Source: Arenibacter aquaticus
GTDB lineage: Bacteria; Bacteroidota; Bacteroidia; Flavobacteriales; Flavobacteriaceae
DNA: 64,000 nt
Assembly (NCBI RefSeq): GCF_003957295.1
Contig: NZ_RQPJ01000021.1
Span: forward strand, 728,210 to 792,209
Direction: 5' to 3'
Position 1 is the stretch's first letter; every line of letters starts with the position of its first letter. Below are positions 5,362-32,986 of this stretch, piece after piece. The position numbers and the translations under genes are program-made. The notes beneath the pieces were generated by a model. That model was not told the DNA's origin and made no database searches. It saw only the letters and a list, made by a program, of their open reading frames with translations.

Positions 5362-5916
5362 TTAAAAAAATATAAATATGACTGTAAACAGATAGTCTTT
5401 GAAATGTAGTCTAAAATGGCTAAGGGCATTGCTGATATGGGTCTCAACAGTACGAATGGAAATGTCCATTTCTTTGGCAATTTCTTTATTGTTGTAACCT
5501 TGAACACGGCTCAAATAAAAAACTCTACGGCATCTATTGGGTAGTTTGCCCATGGTTTTTATAAAAAGACCTTGGGATTCTAAATAATCCATATGCTCGT
5601 TGACACCTTCTGTATGGGGCAGCGTTTTTAATGTGTCTTCGGCAGAAACTCTTCGTTGTTGTTTTTTGAGATAATTGATGGCTTGATATTTCACCCCTCT
5701 AAATAAATATGCTTCTATCTGATTTATTTGAGTCGATTCCGATTTTTCCCACAGACTTATAAAAATTTCTTGTACCAAATCCTGGGCAATCTGGTGATTA
5801 TCCGTAAAACTAAGGGCATAGATGTAAAGACGTTTCCAATAGATGGTGAAAAGCTTTTCAAGTGCTTTTTCTTGACGGTTTTGTAGTGCCTTGGATATTA
5901 ATTTTTGGTTTTCCAT
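5362..5916 (-). CDS. ECF-type RNA polymerase sigma-70 factor
   Basis: 184 residues from the ATG at 5916; a longer reading frame extends upstream to 6039, but it has no sigma-like sequence and the conserved region 2 begins right after MENQ. Region 2 is seen as KLFTIYWKRLYIYA and the AQDLVQEIFISLW helix; region 4 as LPNRCRRVFYLSRVQGYNNKEIA with the helix-turn-helix DISIRTVETHIS. This is the Bacteroidota ECF family that is held by FecR anti-sigma factors and drives SusCD genes. It lies 3' of susD, susC and fecR on the same strand, after a 153-base gap. Such sigma genes more often precede fecR, so this order is unusual. It probably controls the locus at 6-12.4 kb. Confidence 0.9.
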   Translation of the reverse strand: MENQKLISKALQNRQEKALEKLFTIYWKRLYIYALSFTDNHQIAQDLVQEIFISLWEKSESTQINQIEAYLFRGVKYQAINYLKKQQRRVSAEDTLKTLPHTEGVNEHMDYLESQGLFIKTMGKLPNRCRRVFYLSRVQGYNNKEIAKEMDISIRTVETHISNALSHFRLHFKDYLFTVIFIFF

Positions 5917-6069
5917 AATTTGGGGCGCCTTAAATTTGAGTGGTGCCAATATGTATAAATTTATTGGGCTAACGTCAATAAATTGCTTGGTGAATATTAT
6001 GGTTTCGTTACTATAAAAAGCAAGCCCAGAAAGCATCATGTTTTCTGAACTTGCAATTATAATAAAGGA

Positions 6070-7821
6070 CTACCAATTAGGGTTTTGCGTCAAATTTGTA
6101 TTTAATTGTAATTCCTGTATTGGAATAGGTAGCAAATAATCCTTATTCTCATTAAAAGTCCTATTGTTAAATTCAGGAAGTGGATCTATTAAGTTTTCCG
6201 TAGTAAGGTGTACATCTGTCCCTAATTTAAAGTACTTAGCTCCTTCAATTTGGCCTACTGGAAGTTCACCTTCATACAAAACCGTATCAACCGCTCCATT
6301 GCCATCCAAGTCGTATTCCCCTGGACCGGGCAAATAAATACCTCTCAGTGGTAAAGTGAGGGATTGACCAGCTTTCCAACGTCTGATATCATTCCAACGA
6401 TGTCCTTCCATATAAAGTTCCACTCTACGTTCTCTCCTAATTTCCAGAATAAGCCCCTTGTTGGCGCCAGTTACATTTGAGTAGAACCTCTCTTGATAGA
6501 CATCTGGATTTGCATTGGCATCAGCAATAGAAAGACCTGGCATTCCAACCCTTGCGCGAAGCAATCCAATCGATTTTTCCATGTCTTCTTGGGTAGCTGT
6601 TCCCAGTTCGGCTTTGGCCTCGGCATAGTTCAACAATACCTCTGCGAATCTAAATACGGGTAAATCATTGGTATTTTGGTTAATCCCATCAGATCCTGGA
6701 CCTGTTACATACTTTGTTATGAAATAACCAGTAATTGAGTAAGAGAGGTCTGGAGCCAACTCCGTACTTTGTCCAACTCTTGTGTAACCAGATGTACGAA
6801 TGGTTTGTGACAATCTTGGATCACGATCAGTGGTTTCCTCTGCAAAAGAAATTGCGTTGTAATCCGATTGATCTGTAAAGCGACTTCCATCTGCATTTAA
6901 ATACGAATTTGCAACTGTTTTTGGCATGCCAGGTGTTCCTTGGGACCCGGACAATGTATAATAATTTGCTCTGTGACCGTTTACTAACGGTGCTGTATAT
7001 TCCCTGGCCAATATGACCTCTGTGAGTTCTGCAGATTCAGCCCTGAACAAATCAGCATAGTCAGTATCAGGATTACCGGTGGTGTACAATCCGTAAGGAC
7101 TGTTCTCCATTAATTCCTGTGATGACTCTACAGCCGCTTGTAGGTATTTTTCGTAACCAGAAATACCGTGGTACTTTTCAAAAGTGCCCTCAAAAAGAGC
7201 TACTCGGGACTTAAGGGCCAAAGCAGAGTATTTGCTTACTTCATAAGGGTATTGTTGATCATCCATATTGCCGATGGCCCAATCCAAATCTTTCAAGATT
7301 CTGTCCACAACAAGTTGTCTGTCGTCACGAGCCTTGTACAGGTCTTCGTCATCGGCTTCCATGGTTTTATCATACCATGGTACGTCTCCAAAGTCCATTA
7401 CCATATTAAAATAAAAATAGGCTCTAAAGAATCGGGCTACACCTCCATATCTGTTTTTTGCGGTTTCATCCTCGCACTTCTCGTAGTTTTCCAAGAAGTA
7501 GTTGATATCACGTAGGTTGTCCCAGCTCCACCCCCCACCAGTGGTAGGAACTAGTCGAGAGCTAGTCATTAGGTCGCTAAGTGTATTGTGGACAACATCA
7601 CCACATTGGCTATCCGTGATAAAAATCTCATTTCTAACAGAACTGTTCGGCAATAAAAGATAGAACCCATTGGTGTACAGTTGCAAATCCGAAGAAGTTG
7701 TAAAAAAACTATCCTCACTAACGTCGGAAATGGGATTTTTATCCAAATAGTCATCACTACAGTTTACAAGAAGTAAGCTGCTCATAATAAACAATGCTAT
7801 ATATATATTTTTCATCATCAT
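6070..7821 (-). CDS. SusD/RagB-family outer-membrane substrate-binding lipoprotein
   Basis: 583 residues, starting at the first of three consecutive ATG codons (7821, 7818, 7815); an upstream extension would overlap susC. Lipobox SLLLVNC near residue 20 places it in the outer membrane, and a SusD-type N-terminus (YLDKNPISDVSEDSFF) follows. The C-terminal RagB/SusD region has the usual LLNYAEAKAELG and RRERRVELYMEGHRWNDIRRW motifs and ends with NPNW. SusD proteins cap the SusC barrel and bind the substrate. It begins 7 bases after the susC stop, so the two are co-transcribed. The substrate cannot be deduced from sequence; the neighbouring phosphoesterase hints at a phosphorylated compound. Confidence 0.95.
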   Translation of the reverse strand: MMMKNIYIALFIMSSLLLVNCSDDYLDKNPISDVSEDSFFTTSSDLQLYTNGFYLLLPNSSVRNEIFITDSQCGDVVHNTLSDLMTSSRLVPTTGGGWSWDNLRDINYFLENYEKCEDETAKNRYGGVARFFRAYFYFNMVMDFGDVPWYDKTMEADDEDLYKARDDRQLVVDRILKDLDWAIGNMDDQQYPYEVSKYSALALKSRVALFEGTFEKYHGISGYEKYLQAAVESSQELMENSPYGLYTTGNPDTDYADLFRAESAELTEVILAREYTAPLVNGHRANYYTLSGSQGTPGMPKTVANSYLNADGSRFTDQSDYNAISFAEETTDRDPRLSQTIRTSGYTRVGQSTELAPDLSYSITGYFITKYVTGPGSDGINQNTNDLPVFRFAEVLLNYAEAKAELGTATQEDMEKSIGLLRARVGMPGLSIADANANPDVYQERFYSNVTGANKGLILEIRRERRVELYMEGHRWNDIRRWKAGQSLTLPLRGIYLPGPGEYDLDGNGAVDTVLYEGELPVGQIEGAKYFKLGTDVHLTTENLIDPLPEFNNRTFNENKDYLLPIPIQELQLNTNLTQNPNW

Positions 7822-7828
7822 TAAAGGT

Positions 7829-10800
7829 TTAAAATTGAACTGAAATACCAATTGAATAGGTTTTGGACATTGGTGCTTCCTGTCCTCTTGAATCATAGGT
7901 ATAAGATCCTGAAGGGGAGTTAAGGTTCACCTGATTACTGGCAATCTCAGGATCGATGTAATCCGTTAGCTTAGTGAAAGTAAAAATGTTTTCCCCGCTT
8001 AGGTACAATCTGATCTTATCAAATGGTGTTCTGTCCAAGACCGATTTTGGCAGGTTGTACCCCAACGTCAAGTTCTTTAGACGTAAATAAGAGATATCCT
8101 GTATGTATCGATCGTTCGTATTTCTTAAGGAGTTACGACCACTAAGGGCAATATACCCAAAGCCTCTTGGGTAGTAGGCATCCGTATTGTCCGGTGACCA
8201 AATATTGTTGGCCAGATCCTTACGCACAAAAGATGCATAGGGACGGCTATAAGGTCCCCAGAACAATTGGGAGTTGTATCCAGGATACCAATCTTGTTTA
8301 CCTACACCTTGGAAAAAGGCAGATATGTCAAATCCCATCCAGCTTGCTGCAGCTCTAAAGTTGTACAAGTATTTTGGGGCTACATTGCCCACAATTTTTT
8401 GATCCCCTGGGTTATCTAATGTATTGGTACCTGCATTTACAACATCATCACCATTTATATCAACATATTTCACATCACCAGGCTGGAGACCTCCTCGTCC
8501 GGAGATTCTGGCAGTTACATAGGATTGATCCACATGGGCGGCTATTTCCTCCTGAGATTGGAATAGGCCCTCTATTTCATAGCCCCATAGGTCACCAATA
8601 ACCATTCCCTCATAAAAGGAATTCAGTAAATTCTCTGGGTTGTCGAATCTAGTTACTACCGTTTCTGAATTGGAAAGACCCGCTCTCAAACTTAATTGCA
8701 TAGGAGATCCACCAACGTTGAATCTATCACTGTATCCCATGGAAAGTTCAAAACCTTTGGTTTCCAAATCCGCTGCATTTTCTTGCGGAGCGGAAGCTCC
8801 CAAAGTTGACGGAAGTACTTGGCCAGCGGTAAGCATTCCCAAGGTTTCTCTCTTGAACCAATCAAAATTGGCAGTGAATTTATTTCTAAATAAGCCTATA
8901 TCAACACCAAAATCAAGGGTGCGAACTTCTTCCCATGTAATTTCAACTGGATTTAGCGCAGGGGAAGATATGGATTCCAAAGGACTACCGTTCAACGAAA
9001 ATTCATCGTTCACAAAGCGGGATAATACAGGTTGATAGGCATATGGGTCAACCTCTTGGTTACCCAGAGATCCATAGGATGCCCTAAGTTTAAACTGACT
9101 TAAAGTTGGGTGAAGATTTTCCATAAAAGCTTCGTTATGTATGGCCCACGCTGCTGATATTGAAGGGAAAAAGCCCCAACGGAAATCTGAAGGGAACCTA
9201 GAGGTTCCATCATACCTGCCGTTCATCTCCAGGAAATACTTGTTGTCATAATCGTAAGAGATTCTAGAGAATACACCTTGAAGGGCCCATTCATAGGCAC
9301 TTCCATTGGCATTATCTGCTGTGGTTCCCAATCCTAATGAGTTTAGGTCAACCGAAATCAATCCTTGTGTACTTGCCTCAATGGTCTTGCTGTACATTGA
9401 CTCTTGACCAAAACCAGCCATGACATCAATATGATGCTTACCAAAACGGTTGTTGTAGTCGGCATAAATATTAAATGCGTCATAGTCGGCAGAGGTGTTG
9501 TACTCTGTCAGTTCATCAACGCCCATGGTATCCGGTTCGCCAACATATATTGTCCATGGAATCAATGTTGATCTCTGAAGTATGTTCTGATTCATTTTCC
9601 TGTAAGCATAGCTCGCTTTTACCGTAAGTCCATCAACTGGGGTCAAAGTGGCCGTTACAATATTGGAAAATTCGGAGTCTTCCGTTTCTTGCTTGGATTT
9701 TCCATGTAACAATGAAGCATATAATCCATCTCCCGCAGCATAATTGTTCAGTTCACTACGATAGAAATAGGAGCCATCGGGGTTGGTGGGTGAATACCAA
9801 GGCATCGCATGGTTATATACCAAATAGTTCCAGTAGTTTCCGTGCCATCCGGTTCTAAATCCACCATATTGTAAGTCATCATATTTATTGAATTGCATAT
9901 TGTCGGAAATCGTGATCCAATCGTTTAACTTGAACTCAACTTTAGCCCTGTAGTTTTCTTTTTTAAAGAGGTCTTCTTGAACTTTTAACAGACCAACTTC
10001 GCGATAATTACGGTATGAGAAATAACCTTTTAATTTATCCGTACCCCCACTTATGGACGCATTATAGATTTGAGATGGTCTGCTTTTACGGAAAAAGGTG
10101 TTCCACCAATCCGTTTTGGCATAGTGTACATATTGATCTCTTCCATTTCTGGTATCTGTAATGACACGTGCCAAGGATGGATTGGCCGATACTTCCTGTA
10201 AAGCGGCATAATCTGCTTCGCTATACTGTGAATAGGAAGCCCCACTACTGGCTTGGAAAAAGCTATCTGCAATCTGAATGGCTTCAAAGGGGTCTGTGAT
10301 AAAATCCGTATTTGTGGTCACTTGGTTTATTGCTGTGGTGGTCTCAAAACTCACTTTAAGATCACCTTCCCTGGCTTGTTTGGTGGTTATCAAGACAACA
10401 CCAAAGGAAGCACGGGCACCGTAAATAGCTGCCGCACCCGCGTCCTTTAAAACACTGATATTTTCTATGTCACTTGGATTTAGATCATTAATGTCCCCTT
10501 CTACTCCATCAATAATAATTAAAGGTTCGCCACCATTAATGGAGGTAAATCCCCTAATGTTAATGTTGGGGTTATCGGTAGGACGGCCATTAGATCTTGT
10601 GATGGTAAGTCCTGGTGTTAGTCCTTGTAGCGCCGAAGCTGCATTACTCACTGGACGTTCTGCCAAGGCGCTAACATCAACTTTACTTACTGCCGCACTT
10701 AACGATTCAATGGATTTTTCTCCATAACCAACCACTACTACTTCTTGCAGTTCTTCGCTGTTGGCATCAAGTTGTATATTTAACGAGTAAGTATCTGAGG

Positions 10801-11347
10801 CTACGGTTACCGTTTGTGGTTTCATTCCAATATAGGAAAACTCTAAAACCTCGCCAGTTTTAGCGATTATTTCAAAATCCCCGTCAAAATTCGTTACTAC
10901 TCCTCGGCTTGATCCAACAACCATAACATTGGCTCCTATAAGAGGTTCTCCCATATCGTCCTTCACAGAACCTTGGATAGTTCGCTGTAGCAGCTTTATG
11001 GATTTTTGCTCTAAATAGACGGTAACATTTTTGTTTTGAATCTTATAGCCCAAATGGTAAACCTTGGCCAAATGATCCATTACAGTGGTAAGGGGTTTAT
11101 TGGTATAGTTAACGCTTACCTTTCTTTTGATTTGTTTTAATTCACTACTATAAATAAAGCTTACAGCAGCTTGTTCCTCGATATTGTTGAATATTGTAAC
11201 AAGGTCAACTTGGCTTTGGTGCAAGCTAATGGTTGGTGTTACACCTTCATTGGCTTGTGCCGGCAATGCTAAAAAATGCATTGTCCATAACATCATGATG
11301 GTTTTCATAACGTTCCTATTGAAAAAAAATAGTAATTTTGGTTTCAT
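7829..11347 (-). CDS. SusC/RagA-family TonB-dependent transporter with N-terminal STN signalling domain
   Basis: 1,172 residues. After the signal sequence (ending LALPAQA; the ATG at residue 14 is an alternative start) comes an STN/secretin-type domain (about 38-110), which in this family contacts the FecR anti-sigma factor. A carboxypeptidase-regulatory-like domain follows (about 122-200, IQGSVKDDMGEPLIGANV), then the SusC box (EVVVVGYG, about 205), a TonB plug (PLIIIDGVEGDI, ISVLKDAGAAAIYGARA) and a long 22-strand barrel ending in aromatic SIGISVQF. It imports ligands bound by the SusD partner, powered by TonB. The STN domain and the upstream fecR mean that uptake is coupled to transcriptional induction. 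Confidence 0.96.
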   Translation of the reverse strand: MKPKLLFFFNRNVMKTIMMLWTMHFLALPAQANEGVTPTISLHQSQVDLVTIFNNIEEQAAVSFIYSSELKQIKRKVSVNYTNKPLTTVMDHLAKVYHLGYKIQNKNVTVYLEQKSIKLLQRTIQGSVKDDMGEPLIGANVMVVGSSRGVVTNFDGDFEIIAKTGEVLEFSYIGMKPQTVTVASDTYSLNIQLDANSEELQEVVVVGYGEKSIESLSAAVSKVDVSALAERPVSNAASALQGLTPGLTITRSNGRPTDNPNINIRGFTSINGGEPLIIIDGVEGDINDLNPSDIENISVLKDAGAAAIYGARASFGVVLITTKQAREGDLKVSFETTTAINQVTTNTDFITDPFEAIQIADSFFQASSGASYSQYSEADYAALQEVSANPSLARVITDTRNGRDQYVHYAKTDWWNTFFRKSRPSQIYNASISGGTDKLKGYFSYRNYREVGLLKVQEDLFKKENYRAKVEFKLNDWITISDNMQFNKYDDLQYGGFRTGWHGNYWNYLVYNHAMPWYSPTNPDGSYFYRSELNNYAAGDGLYASLLHGKSKQETEDSEFSNIVTATLTPVDGLTVKASYAYRKMNQNILQRSTLIPWTIYVGEPDTMGVDELTEYNTSADYDAFNIYADYNNRFGKHHIDVMAGFGQESMYSKTIEASTQGLISVDLNSLGLGTTADNANGSAYEWALQGVFSRISYDYDNKYFLEMNGRYDGTSRFPSDFRWGFFPSISAAWAIHNEAFMENLHPTLSQFKLRASYGSLGNQEVDPYAYQPVLSRFVNDEFSLNGSPLESISSPALNPVEITWEEVRTLDFGVDIGLFRNKFTANFDWFKRETLGMLTAGQVLPSTLGASAPQENAADLETKGFELSMGYSDRFNVGGSPMQLSLRAGLSNSETVVTRFDNPENLLNSFYEGMVIGDLWGYEIEGLFQSQEEIAAHVDQSYVTARISGRGGLQPGDVKYVDINGDDVVNAGTNTLDNPGDQKIVGNVAPKYLYNFRAAASWMGFDISAFFQGVGKQDWYPGYNSQLFWGPYSRPYASFVRKDLANNIWSPDNTDAYYPRGFGYIALSGRNSLRNTNDRYIQDISYLRLKNLTLGYNLPKSVLDRTPFDKIRLYLSGENIFTFTKLTDYIDPEIASNQVNLNSPSGSYTYDSRGQEAPMSKTYSIGISVQF

Positions 11348-11457: not shown

Positions 11458-12405
11458 TTAGAGTTTCACATTTTTTTTATAAGATATTTTAGAACCGCAT
11501 AACAGTTCCAAACTCTGTATGACTTCTTCTAGCGTGGGGTCGATGAATTTGCCTGAGATAGTTCGCTTTGCCGTGTTTTCATCTATTTCCTCTACATAAA
11601 GTTTTATATTGAACCATCGTTCCATAATTTTTAATGTCTCACTGAAAGAATGATCGTTAAGCTTTATAATATTGTAGAGCCAAAATGTATCGTTACTGGT
11701 ACTATGTGTTTCAACCAAATAATTTTCTGAAGTTTTGTCAAAAATCATTTGTTGGTCTGGCTCTAGGGTTGCTAAAATTGTTTCGGAACGACTAATCTGA
11801 ATTGAGCCGGTTGCCAAACTGATTTTAACCTCTGTATTGTCCTCGTATGCCTTGATGTTGAAAGATGTGCCCAGTACTCGGGTATTGAGCCCAGTTGTTG
11901 ATACTATAAAAGGCTGCTCGGGATTATGGGTTACTTTAAAAAATGCTTCACCACTTAATTGAACATCTCGTGTATCCCCATTGAAGGTTTCAGGATAGGT
12001 AATTCTACTTCCTGCATTTAATGTGACCGATGAGCTGTCCGGAAGTGTAACTTGTGTTTTTTCACCCAGATTTGAAGCTACGGTTATAAATTTAACTTGT
12101 TTTATTGGCAACAATAGCACTGATGACATGCCAAGGACCAATAGAATTGATAAAGAAGCTGCCACACGCAGTAAAGTTCTTCTCTTATGTTTTTCATCCA
12201 AGCTGTACTTTGATTTTTTGGCATGAGCCATAATGCGCTGGGATATTTGCAATCTGATTTTACGCTGGTCTATTTCATCAAACAGTCGTTGCCCGTAAAC
12301 ATGGTAATACTTTTCCAATTCCGCCTCTTCGGCTTTGGAGCAGTTACGGTTTAGGTGTTTTTCAACTAGTTCCAGAAATCGTTTCCGGTCGATCATAGTT
12401 ATCAT
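11458..12405 (-). CDS. FecR-family anti-sigma factor
   Basis: 315 residues. The cytoplasmic N-terminal part (1-78) carries the sigma-binding region, followed by one membrane helix (about 82-102, AASLSILLVLGMSSVLLL). The periplasmic FecR domain (LGEKTQVTLPDSSSVTLN, LSGEAFFKVTHNPEQPFIV, VLGTSFNIKAY) and a C-terminal DUF4974 domain (FSETLKIMERWFNIKLYV ... TLEEVIQSLELL) come next. It sequesters an ECF sigma factor until the STN domain of SusC signals ligand transport. It is followed by susC after 110 bases. A terminator just upstream separates it from the phosphoesterase gene, so it is expected to have its own promoter between 12406 and 12430. Confidence 0.95.
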   Translation of the reverse strand: MITMIDRKRFLELVEKHLNRNCSKAEEAELEKYYHVYGQRLFDEIDQRKIRLQISQRIMAHAKKSKYSLDEKHKRRTLLRVAASLSILLVLGMSSVLLLPIKQVKFITVASNLGEKTQVTLPDSSSVTLNAGSRITYPETFNGDTRDVQLSGEAFFKVTHNPEQPFIVSTTGLNTRVLGTSFNIKAYEDNTEVKISLATGSIQISRSETILATLEPDQQMIFDKTSENYLVETHSTSNDTFWLYNIIKLNDHSFSETLKIMERWFNIKLYVEEIDENTAKRTISGKFIDPTLEEVIQSLELLCGSKISYKKNVKL

Positions 12406-12549: not shown

Positions 12550-13995
12550 TTATTTGTTGGGAGAAACGGTTTCAACAAATGTATTGCCAAAACTATCGGT
12601 AACCTCTATAGTGATATTGCTAACATCACTTGGTTCAAAAAAGAACATATGGTCGGTGACGGCAGGTTCTGCCCAAGGTCTTCTTTCGGGCAACTTATTC
12701 CCCATATGTAGTTTTGTACTCAAAGGGTCGGTAGCGTTTACTCTTCTTACGTGGGATTTACGCTCACCATTTTCATACCAGCAGACACTCCATTTAGAGT
12801 CCCAGTTCCAGATGTTCAAGGAACACGAATTAGGGAATTCTGGATGTATTCCTCTTTCGTAGAATCTAAATTGATGTGATTTGTCTTTCCCTACGGATTT
12901 ATAATACCACGAAAGGTCGCTGCCGTTAACTTGGTAGACCCCGTAACCATTTGGAGTGCCATCTACACAAATAGGACCGCTCCACCATGCCCCACAAACG
13001 GCACCAAGTACGTGTTCGTGACAATTTTCTTCAAAATAATGGTTTATCCTGTGAGTATGTCCAGAGAGAATATGAGTCTTGAATGGCGATAGTAATTCAT
13101 ATAAATGTGCTTTGTTTTTCACATGAAATATTGGAATATGGGCGCAAAGTATGACGGTTCGTCCAGCTTCTATATAACTTAAGTCTTCCTCGAGCCAAGC
13201 CAATTGATTCTCGGTGATATAACCGATGTATTCCCTTTTTACTCCAGTAAAGAAAACATCATCTAACACTATATAGTGGATCTCCCCACGGTTGAAGGAA
13301 TAGTATGATGGTCCAAAATGGTTGTTAAAGGTTCTAGTGGATACCTGATCGGTACGTGAATCCAAATAATCCATGTCGTGGTTTCCAACGACCTGAAAGA
13401 AAGGAATGTTAGTGGCCTTAATGGATTGATTGTAGTCATCAAATAACTGCAGTTGATCATAAACCAAATCCCCACAACCAACACCAAAAGTGTTGGGGTC
13501 GTTCAATTCCTTAATGGTTTGGATAAAATCGGGGGTAGAGATGCTAAGTAATTGTTCGACTTCATATTCATTTTGAATTTGAGGGTCTGCCAATATTAAA
13601 AGGCTATGTTTGTCATCCCTTTGTTGAACAGGTTTGAGTTGGAATAAGATTTCGTTGCTTGGACTTTTCAAATCCAAAGGTTTAAAGAATGATGCCGACC
13701 CATTGGCAAGTTGATCAATTTGGTATCCTGCCGGTAGACTAACAAAAACAAAGGGTTGTTGGCTTGAACTCCAAAAATCAAAATTTCCATTTTTGTCAGT
13801 TAAAATAACTGTTTCTCCATCAGAGACTGCGACTTTGGGCAATCCCTTTTTATTACTTGCTACTTTTCCTTTGACCCTCGTGGGCTTACGCCATAATACT
13901 GGATTTTGCCATCCCAGAAGGCTGGTTGTCCCCAAAAGGGATAATGAGCCGGTAGCCCACCCCATTTTTTTTATAAATGCTCTTCGGTTTTCCAT
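12550..13995 (-). CDS. Tat-exported calcineurin-like metallophosphoesterase with N- and C-terminal accessory domains
   Basis: 481 residues. The start carries a twin-arginine-type leader (NRRAFIKKMGW) followed by a hydrophobic segment. A small beta domain (about 40-120, RVKGKVASNKKGLPKVAV) precedes the phosphoesterase core. Metal-site motifs are ADPQ (137-139), GDLVYD (175-180), GNHD (204-207), AHIPIFH and GHTHR; the Gln in place of His in the first motif is seen in part of this family. The C-terminal third matches the layout of the calcineurin-like C-terminal domain. It should hydrolyse phosphomono- or diesters in the periplasm. It lies upstream of fecR-susC-susD on the same strand but is separated from them by a terminator. 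Its presence suggests that the locus handles phosphorylated substrates; this is inference. Confidence 0.9.
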   Translation of the reverse strand: MENRRAFIKKMGWATGSLSLLGTTSLLGWQNPVLWRKPTRVKGKVASNKKGLPKVAVSDGETVILTDKNGNFDFWSSSQQPFVFVSLPAGYQIDQLANGSASFFKPLDLKSPSNEILFQLKPVQQRDDKHSLLILADPQIQNEYEVEQLLSISTPDFIQTIKELNDPNTFGVGCGDLVYDQLQLFDDYNQSIKATNIPFFQVVGNHDMDYLDSRTDQVSTRTFNNHFGPSYYSFNRGEIHYIVLDDVFFTGVKREYIGYITENQLAWLEEDLSYIEAGRTVILCAHIPIFHVKNKAHLYELLSPFKTHILSGHTHRINHYFEENCHEHVLGAVCGAWWSGPICVDGTPNGYGVYQVNGSDLSWYYKSVGKDKSHQFRFYERGIHPEFPNSCSLNIWNWDSKWSVCWYENGERKSHVRRVNATDPLSTKLHMGNKLPERRPWAEPAVTDHMFFFEPSDVSNITIEVTDSFGNTFVETVSPNK

Positions 13996-14280
13996 AATGT
14001 GTTTTTAAGTTTCTTTACTTTATAGTCAATGAAAAAGGGGGGTACACGTAATAAAATCTATATTAAATTAAGGTTAACCTTCAAATAAGAGTAGACCATA
14101 TCTACTCCTTTGCAAAGTGAGGGTTTTGTTTAAGGAAGCTTTATTAAGAAGAGTATAGAATTTTAAATATTAGGAAGATTCAAGTAACTCCCCGACAAGC
14201 AGTTAATAAAAGTCACAGCGTAGTATTAAAAAAAGGAGCTATATAACTCCCTTCTAGCACAAACTCTAAAATTGCTTAGT

Positions 14281-14560
14281 GCAAAGTAATGGTTCTAAAT
14301 CTATGGCTTGCCTCATTGCTTTTTCAGTCTCCCCTATTCTTAAAAACTTTAAAATAGAGCAACCAACTGATTACTGTGTTATTGAGCGTTTTTTATCATT
14401 TCACCTTTGGCGATTACACCAGGCCCCATAAAAATTATTCAAACCTGATCCGAGTTCTTGTACGCCGATCCATGACTTTTCAATCTATCCAAAAGAACCG
14501 ACCCACGTCCTTGGTCTGTAGTAATGATAAATAAGGTGGTTTTCTTTTGGATAAAATGAA
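14281..14560 (-). pseudogene. remnant of an alkaline-phosphatase-superfamily enzyme (C-terminal part)
   Basis: Read on the minus strand from about 14550, one frame gives TTLFIITTDQGRGS ... SHGSAYKNSDQV, then a TGA, then IIFMGPGVIAKGEMIKNAQ. A frame shift follows, giving ILKFLRIGETEKAMRQAIDLE and ending near 14281. This is the C-terminal core of alkaline-phosphatase-superfamily proteins (usual pattern TTDHGRG ... HG ... GSD-W-F--MGP). The TGA stands where a tryptophan codon is expected, and the metal-binding His of T-D-H is Gln. Together with the frameshift this shows a dead gene. The upstream half is not recognisable. Same strand as the phosphoesterase and SusCD genes. Confidence 0.7.
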
Positions 14561-14577
14561 CAGGAAAAAAAGTGTGC

Positions 14578-14781
14578 AATATGACACATTGGGAACTTTG
14601 GTTGATGCAAAAAAATGGAAGACTTGTTACGGATATGATTTTAAAAGCAATGGAGGTACTTAAAGTCTCAAATTGAATAAAAGTTGTCAAAATTGGGGAT
14701 TCTGAAATTGATTTCGAGGAAGAAAAACTAGTAAATTGTGGCTACACCATAGCCGTTACCATTGGTGCCAAGAACAAATAA
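14578..14781 (+). pseudogene. remnant of a phosphonatase-like HAD hydrolase
   Basis: Plus-strand reading gives GTLVDA in one frame. After a shift it gives KNGRLVTDMILKAMEVLKVSN, a stop, and then VVKIGDSEIDFEEEKLVNCGYTIAVTIGA up to a stop at 14779-14781. This is the C-terminal half of phosphonatase-like HAD hydrolases (pattern GRPAPDMI--AM--LGV ... KVGDT--D-EEG-NAGC--GVT-GA). The key GDS-x-x-D element is still readable, but a frameshift and an internal stop make the gene non-functional. Phosphonatase-like hydrolases act on phosphonoacetaldehyde-type compounds. Upstream DNA is the oppositely oriented phosphatase remnant. Confidence 0.65.
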
Positions 14782-15508
14782 CAATTTAACAGTCGATTTT
14801 ACACATTGCCAAATGAATGCAGAAAATTGGAAAACAACAAAGTTAACGCTCTCCTCTTAAGTGGTTCTTTAGATGGACGAACCTATTTTAGAGATGTCCT
14901 AAAATAGGTAAGGTTACAGATGTGTTGATTGATAGCTTTTTGGTTGCCATAATTCTTACGGTTTCCTTTCTTAAACAAAACGGTTTAAAAGTGAGGGATT
15001 ATAAATAATTGATTAAATTGCTACTCAAAATTATTATTAATTGTGATCACAAACTGAACACGTTTTTCGAACACATTTTCAAATAACAGTGTCTGGGAGG
15101 CCCTGTATTTAGGGGTTTTAAAATGTCTGTCTGGAATTCATTACCCGGAGGTCATAAGTTCAACTCTCGTCCTCGCTACAATACTTAAGTTTACCTAAAT
15201 CAATTAATTGATAATAAATCATCCGTATTATTATTTTTAAAAAGGACTGTGGCTGTTTTGCCCAAAAACAAAAAGGGAACTGGATTTGAAACACAACGGG
15301 CTTTTTCCAATGCATTGTACAATCCAATTTTATATAGTCCTATTTTTAAAAAAGCTACTAAAATTGGAAGCCCACCATTTCATATTTAGCCCATTACCAA
15401 AATTTGGCTAACTTTAAACGCTCCCCTGCATAGAAACTCAGTTTCGACTGAATAATACAAAACTATACATATGGCTGTGTGCCATATTAAATACCGTTAA
15501 CAATAATT
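14782..15508. other. intergenic stretch with decayed DNA and one hairpin
   Basis: A short coding-like stretch (RKLENNKVNALLL-type reading, about 14782-14905, ending in TAG) may be further pseudogene debris in the frame of the HAD remnant, but I cannot identify it. A tRNA-like fragment is listed separately. A perfect 7-base hairpin (ATATGGC / GCCATAT, loop TGTGT) lies at 15469-15487, 22 bases before the next start. It has no T-run and no recognised riboswitch features. Nothing else is seen. Confidence 0.5.
15142..15181 (+). other. degenerate 3' half of a tRNA-Met-like gene (possible attachment-site scar)
   Basis: The stretch from about 15138 reads CATTACCCGGAGGTC, then a T-arm (ATAAG-TTCAACT-CTCGT, one mismatch and one wobble pair) and CCTCGCTACA. 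This matches the anticodon-to-3' end of a bacterial initiator-type tRNA (CAT anticodon, CCCGG stem, AGGTC variable loop, TTC-A loop). No D-arm or matching 5' acceptor strand is present, so it cannot fold as a whole tRNA. Such 3' tRNA pieces are often left by integrating elements; no integrase is seen nearby. Confidence 0.4.
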
Positions 15509-16704: not shown

Positions 16705-17541
16705 TTGGATCAAATAATTTACTCAAATAATAAAATTCACCCTGTGAGAATAGCGATAATAGGTTTTGGAAATATTGGTAGATACCTTGCGAAATGGGTT
16801 ATTAACGACCCTAATTTCGAATTAGGATATGTGGTAGCTAGAAAAGAAATAGATAAGGATAAAGAGGATATTAATTTCAAAGATGAACCAGTAGAATTTA
16901 GAAAAGAAATTACTTCTGATCTTATTAATGATGTTGATATTATCATTGAATGTGCAAATAAGGAAGTTGTATCCCAGCTATTGAAATTTGATGAAATTGA
17001 TCGTTCTGGGTTGAAATTAATTGTGATTAGTACAGGCGGTCTTTACCAAGATAAAGCGATTTTAAAAGAGTTGAAGAAATGTGAGATAATTTTACCAGTA
17101 GGTGCAATTGCGGGACTGGATGCGATAAAAGCTGTGAATGACGAAATTACTTCTATAAAACTAAAGACTACCAAGCACCCTAAAAGTTTAGAAGGTGCAC
17201 CGTTTTTTGACAACGCAAAGATCGACCTATTGTCAATTGATACTACTCAGACTATTTGGGAAGGTGAAGTAAGTGAGGCCTTAAGCTTATTTCCAAAAAA
17301 TATAAATGTTGCTGCAAGTATTTATTTTGCGTCTAAATGTGAAAGTTTAAATATTGAAATAGTTGCTGATCCCAACGCTACTAGCAATATGCATGAGATA
17401 ACTTGTGAAGGTGATTTTGGAAAAATTTATACGCGTACCGAGAATAAACCAAGTCCAAGTAACCCTAAAACAAGTTTTTTAGCTGTTAAAAGTGTTGTAA
17501 GTATACTTAGAAATATGAATTCCACCGTTAAAATAAACTAA
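16705..17541 (+). CDS. L-aspartate dehydrogenase family protein
   Basis: 278 residues. The N-terminal Rossmann fold has IAIIGFGNIGRYLAKW near residues 16-32. The middle carries the aspartate dehydrogenase signature ILPVGAIAGLDAIKA (about 130-144). The C-terminal part has W-x-G-x-x-x-EAL-x-x-FPKNINVAAS and the ADP-x-x-x-x-N-x-H-x-I / NPKTSFLAVKS elements. These enzymes oxidise aspartate to iminoaspartate with NAD(P)+, a route into NAD biosynthesis or amino-acid breakdown. The frame opens with TTG at 16705; a GTG at 16744 would give a start at (M)RIAIIGFGNIG, which is closer to typical family starts. Located alone, with no other NAD-synthesis genes beside it. Confidence 0.85.
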   Translation: MDQIIYSNNKIHPVRIAIIGFGNIGRYLAKWVINDPNFELGYVVARKEIDKDKEDINFKDEPVEFRKEITSDLINDVDIIIECANKEVVSQLLKFDEIDRSGLKLIVISTGGLYQDKAILKELKKCEIILPVGAIAGLDAIKAVNDEITSIKLKTTKHPKSLEGAPFFDNAKIDLLSIDTTQTIWEGEVSEALSLFPKNINVAASIYFASKCESLNIEIVADPNATSNMHEITCEGDFGKIYTRTENKPSPSNPKTSFLAVKSVVSILRNMNSTVKIN

Positions 17542-29434: not shown

Positions 29435-32400
29435 TTAAAACCCAAGTTGAAAACCAACATTAATAGTTCTTTGAAGTGGATAATTTAAACCTGTTCCTTT
29501 AAGTTCAGGATCCCATAATTTAAATTTACTCCAAGTCATCAGGTTTGTACCGGTGACATACATTCTAAGCTTTTGGATATTTAATTTATCTTCCAAGCCT
29601 TTCCCTAGGTCAAATCCTATTTCAACCTGTTTCAGTCTCATAAAAGAACCATCCCGTAACCACCAAGTACTAGTTTGTAAATTATTTTGTATCGGGGTTG
29701 TAGAAAGCCTAGGCCATAAGGCGTATACATTCTTGTTGTCTTCTGACCAATGGTCGTCAGCATAGGCCTGTAGTAGGCCATTTTCAGAAAGAATGCCATT
29801 GCCAGGTTCTATTAATAAACCGGATTGGTTAGTCTGTGAACCAACTACACTATTAATAAATGGTCCTGTTCTATAAGGATCAATAAAAAAAGATGTTTCA
29901 GCAAGACCCTGGAAGAACATACTAATATCAAAGCGTTTGTACCCAGCGGAAAGTCCGAAACCATAGGTTATTTTAGGCACATCTGGCTTGCCTATAGCTG
30001 CTTGATCCAGAGAAGTGATTATATTATCCCCATTAAGATCTTTATACTTAATATCCCCACCACCATAGTCGATTCCTGGGGTGCCAAATTGGACCGGTGA
30101 ATTTCTAGCTTCTTCATCATCTACAAATAAACGCTCGGCAATATAACCCTGTCTGGTGCTTACATTGTTGCCAATATTGGAACGCCAAGGAGCTCCAATT
30201 TCAGCATAGTTTGGTTCTTCAAAAACCGTGAACTCATTATCCGTATAAACAAAGGTAGCACGCCCCTGTAACCAAAAGTTTTCGTTAAAGGAATGATTTA
30301 TGTCCAAGGAAGCATCTACCCCTTGCAACTTCACTTCTCCAACATTTGTCTGAATTACGGATTGTAAACCTAAAGTTGTAGGGATGTCCGATCTGGTCTG
30401 CAAGATATTTGATCTGTTGTCCTGAAATACATCTGCCCTGAACTGCACGGCATCATTGAACAGGTTTAGATCTACCCCTATGTTGAGTTTCCGTGCAGTT
30501 TCCCATGTAACCAAAGGATTTGCATACCTGCTAATGGAGACGCCGTTGATACCTTGGTTTAAATCGCGTCCGAAGGTATAACCACGACTGCTATTATTGA
30601 TATCGACCTCAGAGAGATAGAAAAAGCGATCGTTCCGGGTATTTCCTATTTGATCATTACCTACCCAACCGTAGGAAGCTCTAAATTTAAGCCTGGAAAT
30701 GGATTCGGATTTAAAGAATTTTTCATTGGACACTAGCCAGCCAACCCCGAAGGAAGGGAAAAAACCAAATCGATTCTCTTTCGCAAACCTTTCCGATCCA
30801 TTATATCCAAAATTGGTCTCTATAAAGTATCGGTTATCATAATCATAATTAAACCTGCCCGCCAACGTAAGATTTCTACTCGGTAAGGAAAGTTGAACCG
30901 TATTGGCATTCCCATCCAAAAACTCTCGTGCGGTAAAAGCCAGAAGTCCTGAAACAGTATGTTTCTCAGCAAAGATTTTGTGATAATCTGCAGCGAGCTC
31001 CATATATAGCACTGAATTGTTAACGGCTTTGTGATCCGGATCCAATTCCAATGATTCATCGCCTTCCGAAGTTCTCGTTAAGGTGTATTCCTCTGTATTT
31101 GAATCAAAAGTTGAAACCCGATAAAAATAGGGTTTATAGGACCTTCTGTTCTCGAATGAAGAAGTGGTGTTGGCATTACCTAAAAACCGAGCAGAAAGTC
31201 CCTCCAATATAGAATTTAGGTCTTGTTTGAACTCCAATTGAACCAATGATAGTTGACGTCTATAATCGCGATATCCCCGTTGTAATTCGGCGTACGGATT
31301 ATACCAAACGGCCCCGTTGTCACGGTTACTGCTTTGTCTTGGCCCCAAGTCGTTTCCGAATGTTATATGAGGAACTCCCTGTAATGCATCGTCAGGCTCT
31401 AGAACAGCAGGAAATCGAACAGGACTGGTCCGTACTGCAGCGTTGTAAATGGCATTTCCTCCTTGTAGAGGACCTCTATAATCATCAATTGTTGAATGAA
31501 GCCTGACAATCATTTCAGTGTTCTCGTGCAGGTCGATATTTATATTTGAACGTAGTACATATTGATTCAATTTGATATTATTGGTGAAGCTATTGGTGTC
31601 ATCTACCTTAAGCAGTCCATCATCTGAATTCAGTGCCCCCGCAACATAATATCGTACCTTATCACCACCACCTCTTACATTGAGATTTATACGTCGTGAA
31701 CCGGCCCAATCCTGAAATAATTTATCGAACCAGTCAACAGCGGGATAAATATTTGGATTGCCTCCTCTAGCGGTACCTGCAATTTTTTCCTCCGTAAAAG
31801 TTGGAAAAAGCCCTCTAGTCCTATCCGCTTCATTCTGCAATCTCATATGGGTAACAGGATCGGCAAGGTCTACTACCGAAACAGGTGAACTGTAGGCATT
31901 CTCATATCTTAGATTGACGGCTACTTTTCCTTTTACTCCCGTTTTTGTAGTGACCAAAATTATTCCATTGGCTCCACGAGCTCCATAAATCGCCGTAGTT
32001 GTAGGGTCCTTAAGTACGGAAAAACTTTGTATGTCATCTGGCTGTAACCTAGCTAGATCGTCTACAGTTAGTTCTACCCCATCTATTAAAATCAACGGGC
32101 CGTTCTGGCCATTAAAGGAAGCCACTCCCCGGACAAAAAACTGGGCATTGTCCGCGCCCGGTTCGCCACTGGTCTGATAAGAGACCATTCCCGAAATTCT
32201 TCCTGCAAGAGCGGTTGTTAAATTACTTGATGGAATCTTAAGTTCTGATGGCGTAATAGAAGTCATGGCCCCTACAACGGCTTCTTTCTTTTGGGTACCA
32301 AAACCCATAACTACCACTTCATCCAAGCCAGCCGCATTTTCTTCCAATACAATATTAATGGAACTTTGACCGTTAATAGGCACCTCCTTAGTGGCAAACC

Positions 32401-32986
32401 CTATATAAGTAATCACCAAAATAGCGTTTCCGTCCTCCACGTTTATGGAAAAATTCCCGTCAAAATCGGCCTGAGTACCATTGGTCGTCCCTTTTTCCAG
32501 TATGTTGGCACCAGCCAACGGCATTCCGTTCTCATCGGTGATGGTACCCGTAATGGTCTCCTGCAATTTTATAATTTCAAAATAACTTTGACCTGGACCT
32601 ACAAAAATTGGTTTGTTGCGTTCAATCTCTACCTTTTTTAGTAAAATTTGCTTTTTATAAACTTCATAGGTAATGTTGGTTCCACTAAAAAGCTTATCGA
32701 GAATATCAAAAATCTTTTCCTTATTCGCCTTAATATTTACTTCTCTTTTTACATCTATTTTCTGGGTGTCCACAAAAAATTTAAACTCAGAGATAGTCTC
32801 GATTTTGTTAAGTACCTCACTTAACTGTACATCGTTCATATCAAGGGATATCCTAGTTTTTTGGGAATAAGTAGTGGCATTGATCTGCAGCATACAAACT
32901 AAGAGAAAAAAGGTGGTCAGTTTCATTTTAAGATCCCACTTTAGAGTGCATATAGGTACACTCCCGATATTAATCAGGTTTTTCAT
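29435..32986 (-). CDS. SusC/RagA-family TonB-dependent transporter with STN domain
   Basis: 1,183 residues. The signal region is long (start MKNLINIGSVPICTLKW, hydrophobic core LTTFFLLVCMLQINA); the ATG at residue 21 is a possible alternative start. An STN domain follows (about 45-115), then the carboxypeptidase-regulatory-like domain (ITGTITDENGMPLAGANIL, about 143-220). The SusC box is EVVVMGFGTQKKEAVVGA, followed by the TonB plug (PLILIDGVELTVDDLARL, FSVLKDPTTTAIYGARGANG) and the barrel ending INVGFQLGF. It imports glycan captured by SusD. The STN domain links it to the FecR protein encoded just upstream. Confidence 0.96.
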   Translation of the reverse strand: MKNLINIGSVPICTLKWDLKMKLTTFFLLVCMLQINATTYSQKTRISLDMNDVQLSEVLNKIETISEFKFFVDTQKIDVKREVNIKANKEKIFDILDKLFSGTNITYEVYKKQILLKKVEIERNKPIFVGPGQSYFEIIKLQETITGTITDENGMPLAGANILEKGTTNGTQADFDGNFSINVEDGNAILVITYIGFATKEVPINGQSSINIVLEENAAGLDEVVVMGFGTQKKEAVVGAMTSITPSELKIPSSNLTTALAGRISGMVSYQTSGEPGADNAQFFVRGVASFNGQNGPLILIDGVELTVDDLARLQPDDIQSFSVLKDPTTTAIYGARGANGIILVTTKTGVKGKVAVNLRYENAYSSPVSVVDLADPVTHMRLQNEADRTRGLFPTFTEEKIAGTARGGNPNIYPAVDWFDKLFQDWAGSRRINLNVRGGGDKVRYYVAGALNSDDGLLKVDDTNSFTNNIKLNQYVLRSNINIDLHENTEMIVRLHSTIDDYRGPLQGGNAIYNAAVRTSPVRFPAVLEPDDALQGVPHITFGNDLGPRQSSNRDNGAVWYNPYAELQRGYRDYRRQLSLVQLEFKQDLNSILEGLSARFLGNANTTSSFENRRSYKPYFYRVSTFDSNTEEYTLTRTSEGDESLELDPDHKAVNNSVLYMELAADYHKIFAEKHTVSGLLAFTAREFLDGNANTVQLSLPSRNLTLAGRFNYDYDNRYFIETNFGYNGSERFAKENRFGFFPSFGVGWLVSNEKFFKSESISRLKFRASYGWVGNDQIGNTRNDRFFYLSEVDINNSSRGYTFGRDLNQGINGVSISRYANPLVTWETARKLNIGVDLNLFNDAVQFRADVFQDNRSNILQTRSDIPTTLGLQSVIQTNVGEVKLQGVDASLDINHSFNENFWLQGRATFVYTDNEFTVFEEPNYAEIGAPWRSNIGNNVSTRQGYIAERLFVDDEEARNSPVQFGTPGIDYGGGDIKYKDLNGDNIITSLDQAAIGKPDVPKITYGFGLSAGYKRFDISMFFQGLAETSFFIDPYRTGPFINSVVGSQTNQSGLLIEPGNGILSENGLLQAYADDHWSEDNKNVYALWPRLSTTPIQNNLQTSTWWLRDGSFMRLKQVEIGFDLGKGLEDKLNIQKLRMYVTGTNLMTWSKFKLWDPELKGTGLNYPLQRTINVGFQLGF

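Follow-up and report, generated by a model that had tools for sequence, protein, structure and literature searches.

SusCD-type transport pairs have been linked with organophosphate (PMC8115612, PMC8812569), and the closest described systems are the PusCD of Flavobacterium johnsoniae and its relatives, for which the available part of one report gives six PusCD forms beside phosphomonoesterases, phosphodiesterases (PDEs) and phosphonate-degrading enzymes (PMC8115612). Here, we describe a five-gene operon on the minus strand of Arenibacter aquaticus, at 13995-5362 of the window (the whole stretch of 64,000 nucleotides analysed, positions 728,210 to 792,209 of contig NZ_RQPJ01000021.1), which encodes in this order a phosphoesterase (PE), a FecR-type anti-sigma factor, a SusC-type TonB-dependent transporter, a SusD-type surface lipoprotein and an extracytoplasmic function (ECF) sigma factor. 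Likened by gene content to the PusCD as the available text presents them, the operon agrees in having a SusCD pair, with a PF07980/PF14322 SusD, beside an exported phosphoesterase, whereas it differs in that this enzyme is a MetallophosN/C phosphoesterase and that a sigma gene closes the operon. With a SusC/SusD pair and a predicted exported phosphoesterase in the same cluster, in an order kept in the four closest loci of other genomes, the operon is probably a variant of the published phosphate-utilisation-system (PUS) type, as far as the available part of the report defines that type (PMC8115612). In the literature searched, no account of this operon or its SusCD clade was found. Our analyses favor, with a probability of roughly 0.6, the reading that the operon is a PUS-type importer of phosphodiesters and that two gene scraps lying upstream of it are the debris of a different, decayed phosphonate locus.

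The open reading frames (ORFs) of the window were scanned with Pfam and NCBIfam (TIGR) profiles, applying the family cut-offs. The first gene of the operon, PE (12550..13995), encodes a calcineurin-like phosphoesterase of 481 aa whose MetallophosN and MetallophosC domains both score above the Pfam cut-offs (PF16371, 71.6 bits against 35.6; PF16370, 155.2 bits against 29.7). Its twin arginines, residues 4-5, are well kept among 79 aligned sequences (R4 in 76, R5 in 70), and this Tat-type motif suggests that the protein is exported. The presumed metal ligands (D137, Q139, D176, N205, H206, H286, H313 and H315) are identical in 79/79, that is, in the window protein and 78 homologues; the metal-binding motif reads DxQ, where DxH is the usual form. 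The AlphaFold model (pLDDT 85.1, pTM 0.85) finds its closest solved folds in Rv0805 (Foldseek E 1.3e-11) and the glycerophosphodiesterase GpdQ (E 3.7e-9); the metallophosphoesterase core aligns with both, yet identity is 16-19%, and PE has additional N- and C-terminal domains that the two lack. Family and modelled fold thus point to a predicted phosphoesterase activity. That a Tat-type phosphoesterase lies upstream of fecR-susC-susD, as the original prediction had it, is borne out by the two domains, the arginine pair and the same-strand order.

The other four genes, all on the same strand, are fecR (11458..12405; PF04773 63.8 bits, PF16344 29.5 bits), susC (7829..11347; TIGR04056 846 bits), the product of which carries an STN domain (PF07660, 28.9 bits against a cut-off of 28.4), susD (6070..7896; PF07980 172.7 bits, PF14322 58.1 bits), the listed start of which overlaps susC and whose real start probably lies further inside the gene, and the sigma gene (5362..6039; TIGR02985 136 bits, cut-off 126.4), the start of which is uncertain. 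Judging from gene company and fold, SusD would capture an organic phosphodiester at the surface, for example a glycerophosphodiester or a phospholipid head group, SusC would import it using TonB energy, and the exported PE would cleave it in the periplasm. FecR/ECF systems signal through the STN domain of the transporter, and the FecR/ECF sigma pair may in this way sense import via SusC and turn the operon on.

The order PE-fecR-susC-susD-sigma is kept, with differing outer flanks, in the four closest PE loci (L086-L089), which belong to Flagellimonas hadalis (86% PE identity), F. olearia (73%), [Muricauda] yonaguniensis (67%) and one metagenome-assembled genome (67%; in this locus, L089, susC is split over two ORFs). 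On this conservation, a chance adjacency of PE and SusCD was rejected. In a scan of named genomes, the best 80 of 147 PE loci were fetched, and 78 of them were counted after two without a labelled PE ORF (L140 and L146) had been dropped. Within four genes of PE, SusC was labelled in 57 loci, GDPD in 23, PLD in 5, and HAD, FAD oxidoreductase or alkaline phosphatase (AP) in none; GDPD/PLD ORFs made up 30 of the 445 inside three genes of PE and 0 of the 533 beyond (Fisher p 3e-11). Among the 397 genomes of the family, including that of A. aquaticus, PE was found at E 1e-60 or better in two others, in the order sigma-fecR-SusC-SusD-PE and with a different SusCD clade. The top-scoring PE match in 17 congeners shows only 38% identity, so the operon was probably acquired recently or else retained in this lineage only. 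An intact version at the same site in congeners was also sought and rejected: in six congeners that carry the downstream dus gene, dus does not have the genes of the island beside it, and one of the six has a different sigma-FecR-SusC set there (SusC ~33%). HAD and AP queries found nothing at these six dus sites (two of the stretches 10-12 kb long, one ended by a contig end), where weak matches were obtained for FAD (E 0.003, L205) and PDE (E 0.008, L200).

The SusC neighbourhoods supply the second line of evidence. Searched in the 397 genomes at E 1e-200, with at most two candidates scored per genome, the window SusC gave 18 non-self matches in 16 other genomes, and all 18 neighbourhoods were fetched. 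A phospho-enzyme is present in 18/18: an endonuclease/exonuclease/phosphatase family protein (EEP, PF03372) in 11, NAGPA in two, GDPD in two, a type I phosphodiesterase in two, and a Metallophos/MetallophosN protein with FAD and HAD in one. The seven matches at 55-57% identity (seven genomes) all have an EEP gene directly after SusD, and SusC-SusD-EEP occurs in a congener (G001) as well. The window itself has no space for an EEP between susD and sigma and has PE instead; the best EEP of its genome (41%) lies outside the operon. Pfam assigned PF03372 to 14, PF01663 to 4, PF03009 to 3 and PF00149 to 2 of 65 neighbours; the counts leave out neighbours that carried a SusC, SusD, sigma or FecR label and ORFs at the edges lacking whole codons. 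As a control we took the relatives of the other SusC of the window (29435-32986), comprising 18 loci and 76 neighbours, of which 0/76 were labelled by the phospho-enzyme profiles; nor does any phosphoesterase family appear among the listed control families (25 of 64) matching at least two members, a list that a single-member family could escape. Glycan import is the function usually assigned to SusCD systems, and a phospho-enzyme in 18 of 18 loci offers a sequence handle for organic-phosphorus uptake in Bacteroidota.

Upstream of the operon, no intact gene was recognised in the gap 14014-15500. Two scraps lie there, 0.4-0.8 kb from the operon. The first (14364..14546, minus strand) is a C-terminal piece of an AP-superfamily gene with two stops, 46% identical over 61 aa to the AP of genome G009 and to that on contig C5 of the same genome (tblastn, 53.9 bits with the G009 protein and 54.7 bits with the intact own copy). 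The second (14544..14793, plus strand) is a C-terminal piece of a phosphonatase-like HAD (TIGR03351) with a frame change and two stops. The profile search that the original prediction had proposed for this region located it at 14614-14787 (E 3.6e-6, profile positions 143-200 of 220, below the family cut-off), and it is the sole TIGR03351 match in the genome at an E threshold of 0.001; tblastn with the protein of genome G013 aligned 14611-14793 (54.3 bits, E 4.4e-12, 51% over 61 aa) and, in a different frame, a second piece at 14544-14612. When 500 dinucleotide shuffles of 14014-15500 were rescored by tblastn with the G009 queries, the maxima were 23.5 bits for HAD and 26.9 bits for AP, against 53.5 and 53.9 bits in the real sequence. 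The dead AP and HAD copies predicted at 14.2-14.8 kb are therefore real, in the form of C-terminal scraps; the catalytic nucleophiles of HAD and AP presumably sit in the N-terminal parts that are missing. By the same shuffle comparison, a 25-bit PAP match in the gap was at noise level, and neither a FAD-oxidoreductase remnant nor a DUF5690 transporter adjoining the scraps was found in 14.0-15.5 kb. The scraps stand head-to-head: their N-terminal sides face each other and touch at 14544/14546, and we judge that neither is part of the operon.

The FAD enzymes PbfB-D have been described in phosphonate degradation, as the accessible part of one report sets out (PMC10590968). In our searches, HAD above the family cut-off was present in 4 of 60 relatives and 28 of the 397 family genomes, and the latter, together with G009 and G013, gave a set of 30 HAD loci, not all of them independent. 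These stretches of ~14-20 kb were labelled with profiles built from loci among which were the first four, and NCBIfam and Pfam scans of representatives supplied the names. DUF5690 is present in all 30, a FAD enzyme in 29, a phosphatase-type gene (PDE, PAP or AP) in 28, SusD in 26 and PbfA in 19; the FAD enzyme family here is TIGR03364, which we take to be PbfD. These counts support SusCD, a PhnX-like HAD, a TIGR03364 FAD enzyme and phosphatases as a real recurrent locus among relatives, and the presence of SusD in 26/30 suggests that SusCD may carry larger phosphonate esters, beyond free aminoethylphosphonate, across the outer membrane. The HAD scrap belongs to the family of these loci, of which the intact ones carry FAD, DUF5690, mostly SusCD and phosphatases, and often PbfA, whereas the window has C-terminal scraps only, no FAD gene and a live SusCD from a different clade. 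Orthology between the window SusCD and that of the first four HAD loci was considered and rejected, as they share only local stretches at ~22-38% identity. In the intact loci with both AP and HAD, the two genes lie on the same strand in 7/7, so that the opposite strands of the scraps require a rearrangement. The scraps are probably the remains of a phosphonate-utilisation locus (SusCD, DUF5690 transporter, FAD enzyme, HAD and phosphatases) broken by rearrangement and probably unrelated to the work of the operon.

The genome has not lost phosphonate catabolism with these scraps, as intact phosphonate genes are retained on contigs C4 and C5; loss of phosphonate use by the organism is ruled out by PhnW, PhnY, PhnA and PbfA. 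On C4, PhnW (407.4 bits, cut-off 360.8) and PhnA (457.8 bits, cut-off 407.55) score above their cut-offs and PhnY (627.9 bits) slightly below its own (635.65). C5 (744000-774000; L185, L190) carries an intact SusC-SusD-PDE-PbfA-PAP-AP cluster with DUF5690 beside it, its PbfA scoring 737.8 bits (cut-off 525). Judged by a flanking P-type-ATPase-like gene (read by eye), this locus seems to correspond to that of G009 minus FAD and HAD, and there is no HAD or FAD scar between DUF5690 and SusC at C5. For TIGR03364, no match over the cut-off was obtained among the 27 of 42 candidates scored in this genome. In the G009 and G013 counterparts of the C5 locus, FAD and HAD are present and PbfA is not labelled. 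The PhnW-PhnY-PhnA genes of C4 (203000-230000; L184, L189) lie near AP, EEP, metallophosphoesterase and FAD-oxidoreductase genes, two GlpT-like MFS genes and a SusCD pair, and similar gene content is seen in L186 (G006) and L187 (G014).

Several observations weigh against a phosphodiester importer. GDPD is absent from the operon of the window, 21 of the 78 PE loci have no SusC inside four genes, and the EEP and metallophosphoesterase folds also cover nucleases and monoesterases. The phospho-enzyme list was compiled during inspection of the loci, and the control clade is closer to its query (47-92% identity) than the test clade is (35-56%). Control by ECF/FecR points to the substrate, more than phosphate starvation, as the signal. 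Directly beyond sigma in F. hadalis lie DUF5690, an HTH regulator (assigned by eye, without an NCBIfam match at 1e-20) and a TIGR03366-like dehydrogenase (228.9 bits over profile positions 1-212 of 315, the gene being cut by the locus end; cut-off 328.1). Moreover, HAD exceeds its cut-off in 3/3 searched operon-bearing genomes (F. olearia left out), each time on a contig other than that of the operon, a co-occurrence that shared ancestry of the genomes may explain. The F. hadalis block and this co-occurrence keep a phosphonate ester possible as the substrate.

The alternative that the operon imports a phosphonate ester, such as a phosphonolipid or an aminoethylphosphonate-bearing glycan, from which PE would free a phosphonate once processed by the now-broken HAD and its partners, draws on these two points and on the scraps just upstream. 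A block similar to that of F. hadalis borders FAD-HAD in L232, L237 and L243 (the dehydrogenase of L237, the sole one scanned, scores 320.3 bits with TIGR03366, slightly below the cut-off), and in L237 (G061) and L243 (G296) a SusC/SusD pair of the window clade (38-41%) precedes a large protein, FAD and HAD, the large protein of L237 having Metallophos and MetallophosN domains. However, HAD, FAD and AP queries gave no tblastn match at E 1e-5 in the 80 PE loci, including the fetched flanks of the four orthologous operons, HAD lies on other contigs in the operon-bearing genomes, the closest SusC relatives (53-56%) adjoin EEP enzymes, the scraps require a rearrangement and the genome keeps its other phosphonate genes. 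We therefore regard a phosphonate ester as an unlikely substrate. The same flanks, the 0/78 PE loci and the intact phosphonate loci elsewhere speak against the idea in the original prediction that this uptake system has lost part of its cytoplasmic route. Of the target proposed there, an organophosphate or phosphonate, the organophosphate is favored by the SusCD and PE neighbourhoods, compared with the control, and by the fold, while membership of the scraps in this system is not supported; the intact neighbours expected in related genomes were found in the separate HAD locus, not beside the orthologous operon.

A broader view, tentative and in our estimate doubtful, is that the SusC/SusD clade is a lineage, presumably within Flavobacteriaceae, dedicated to the transport of phosphoesters and phosphonate esters, with the esterase module exchanged from locus to locus (EEP, MetallophosN/C, GDPD, NAGPA, type I phosphodiesterase, or esterase with FAD and HAD), and that the window operon and its F. 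hadalis twin would each handle both phosphonate and phosphate diesters.

Uptake of DNA- or RNA-derived material or nucleotides, with PE and the EEP of relatives acting as nuclease or nucleotidase, would fit the nucleases included in PF03372 and the 5'-nucleotidases, Mre11 and Dbr1 that PE matches more weakly in fold. We hold it to be improbable, since Rv0805 and GpdQ head the fold matches, GDPD and PLD are among the neighbours of PE elsewhere, and one SusC relative (L258) stands beside GDPD and genes resembling GlpK and GlpF (both named by eye). SusCD systems mostly serve glycans, and NAGPA, a phosphodiester glycosidase, accompanies two SusC relatives, but an ordinary polysaccharide utilisation locus in which the phosphoesterase merely trims phosphate substituents is very improbable, as the scans found no carbohydrate-active enzyme in the five-gene operon or among the 25 commonest of 103 families listed around the SusC relatives, unlike the control, whose neighbours include DUF4959/5000/5126, carbohydrate-binding modules, GH92, alginate lyase, sulfatase and phosphomannose isomerase.

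Besides the phosphodiester importer proposed here, some further arrangements were observed. In G070 (L082, 454-19001), two SusCD systems adjoin in divergent orientation, AP-SusD-SusC-FecR-sigma on one side and SusC-SusD-TIM barrel-GDSL-PHP-NAGPA on the other; the second SusCD is the relative of that in the window, with NAGPA five genes from SusC and the PHP-domain gene nearer. The sigma gene of the window lies after susD at the operon end, compared with before fecR in many loci seen; it also follows susD in L086-L089, and follows the EEP gene in L072-L074. An aspartate-dehydrogenase-like gene at 16705-17541 of the window has one weak relative (34%, G011) among 15 congeners searched. Finally, many loci of Hymenobacter, Chitinophaga and Pedobacter (L097, L109, L157 and others) have a DUF5689 protein separating SusD from PE, and DUF5689 is labelled in 30 of the 78 PE loci.

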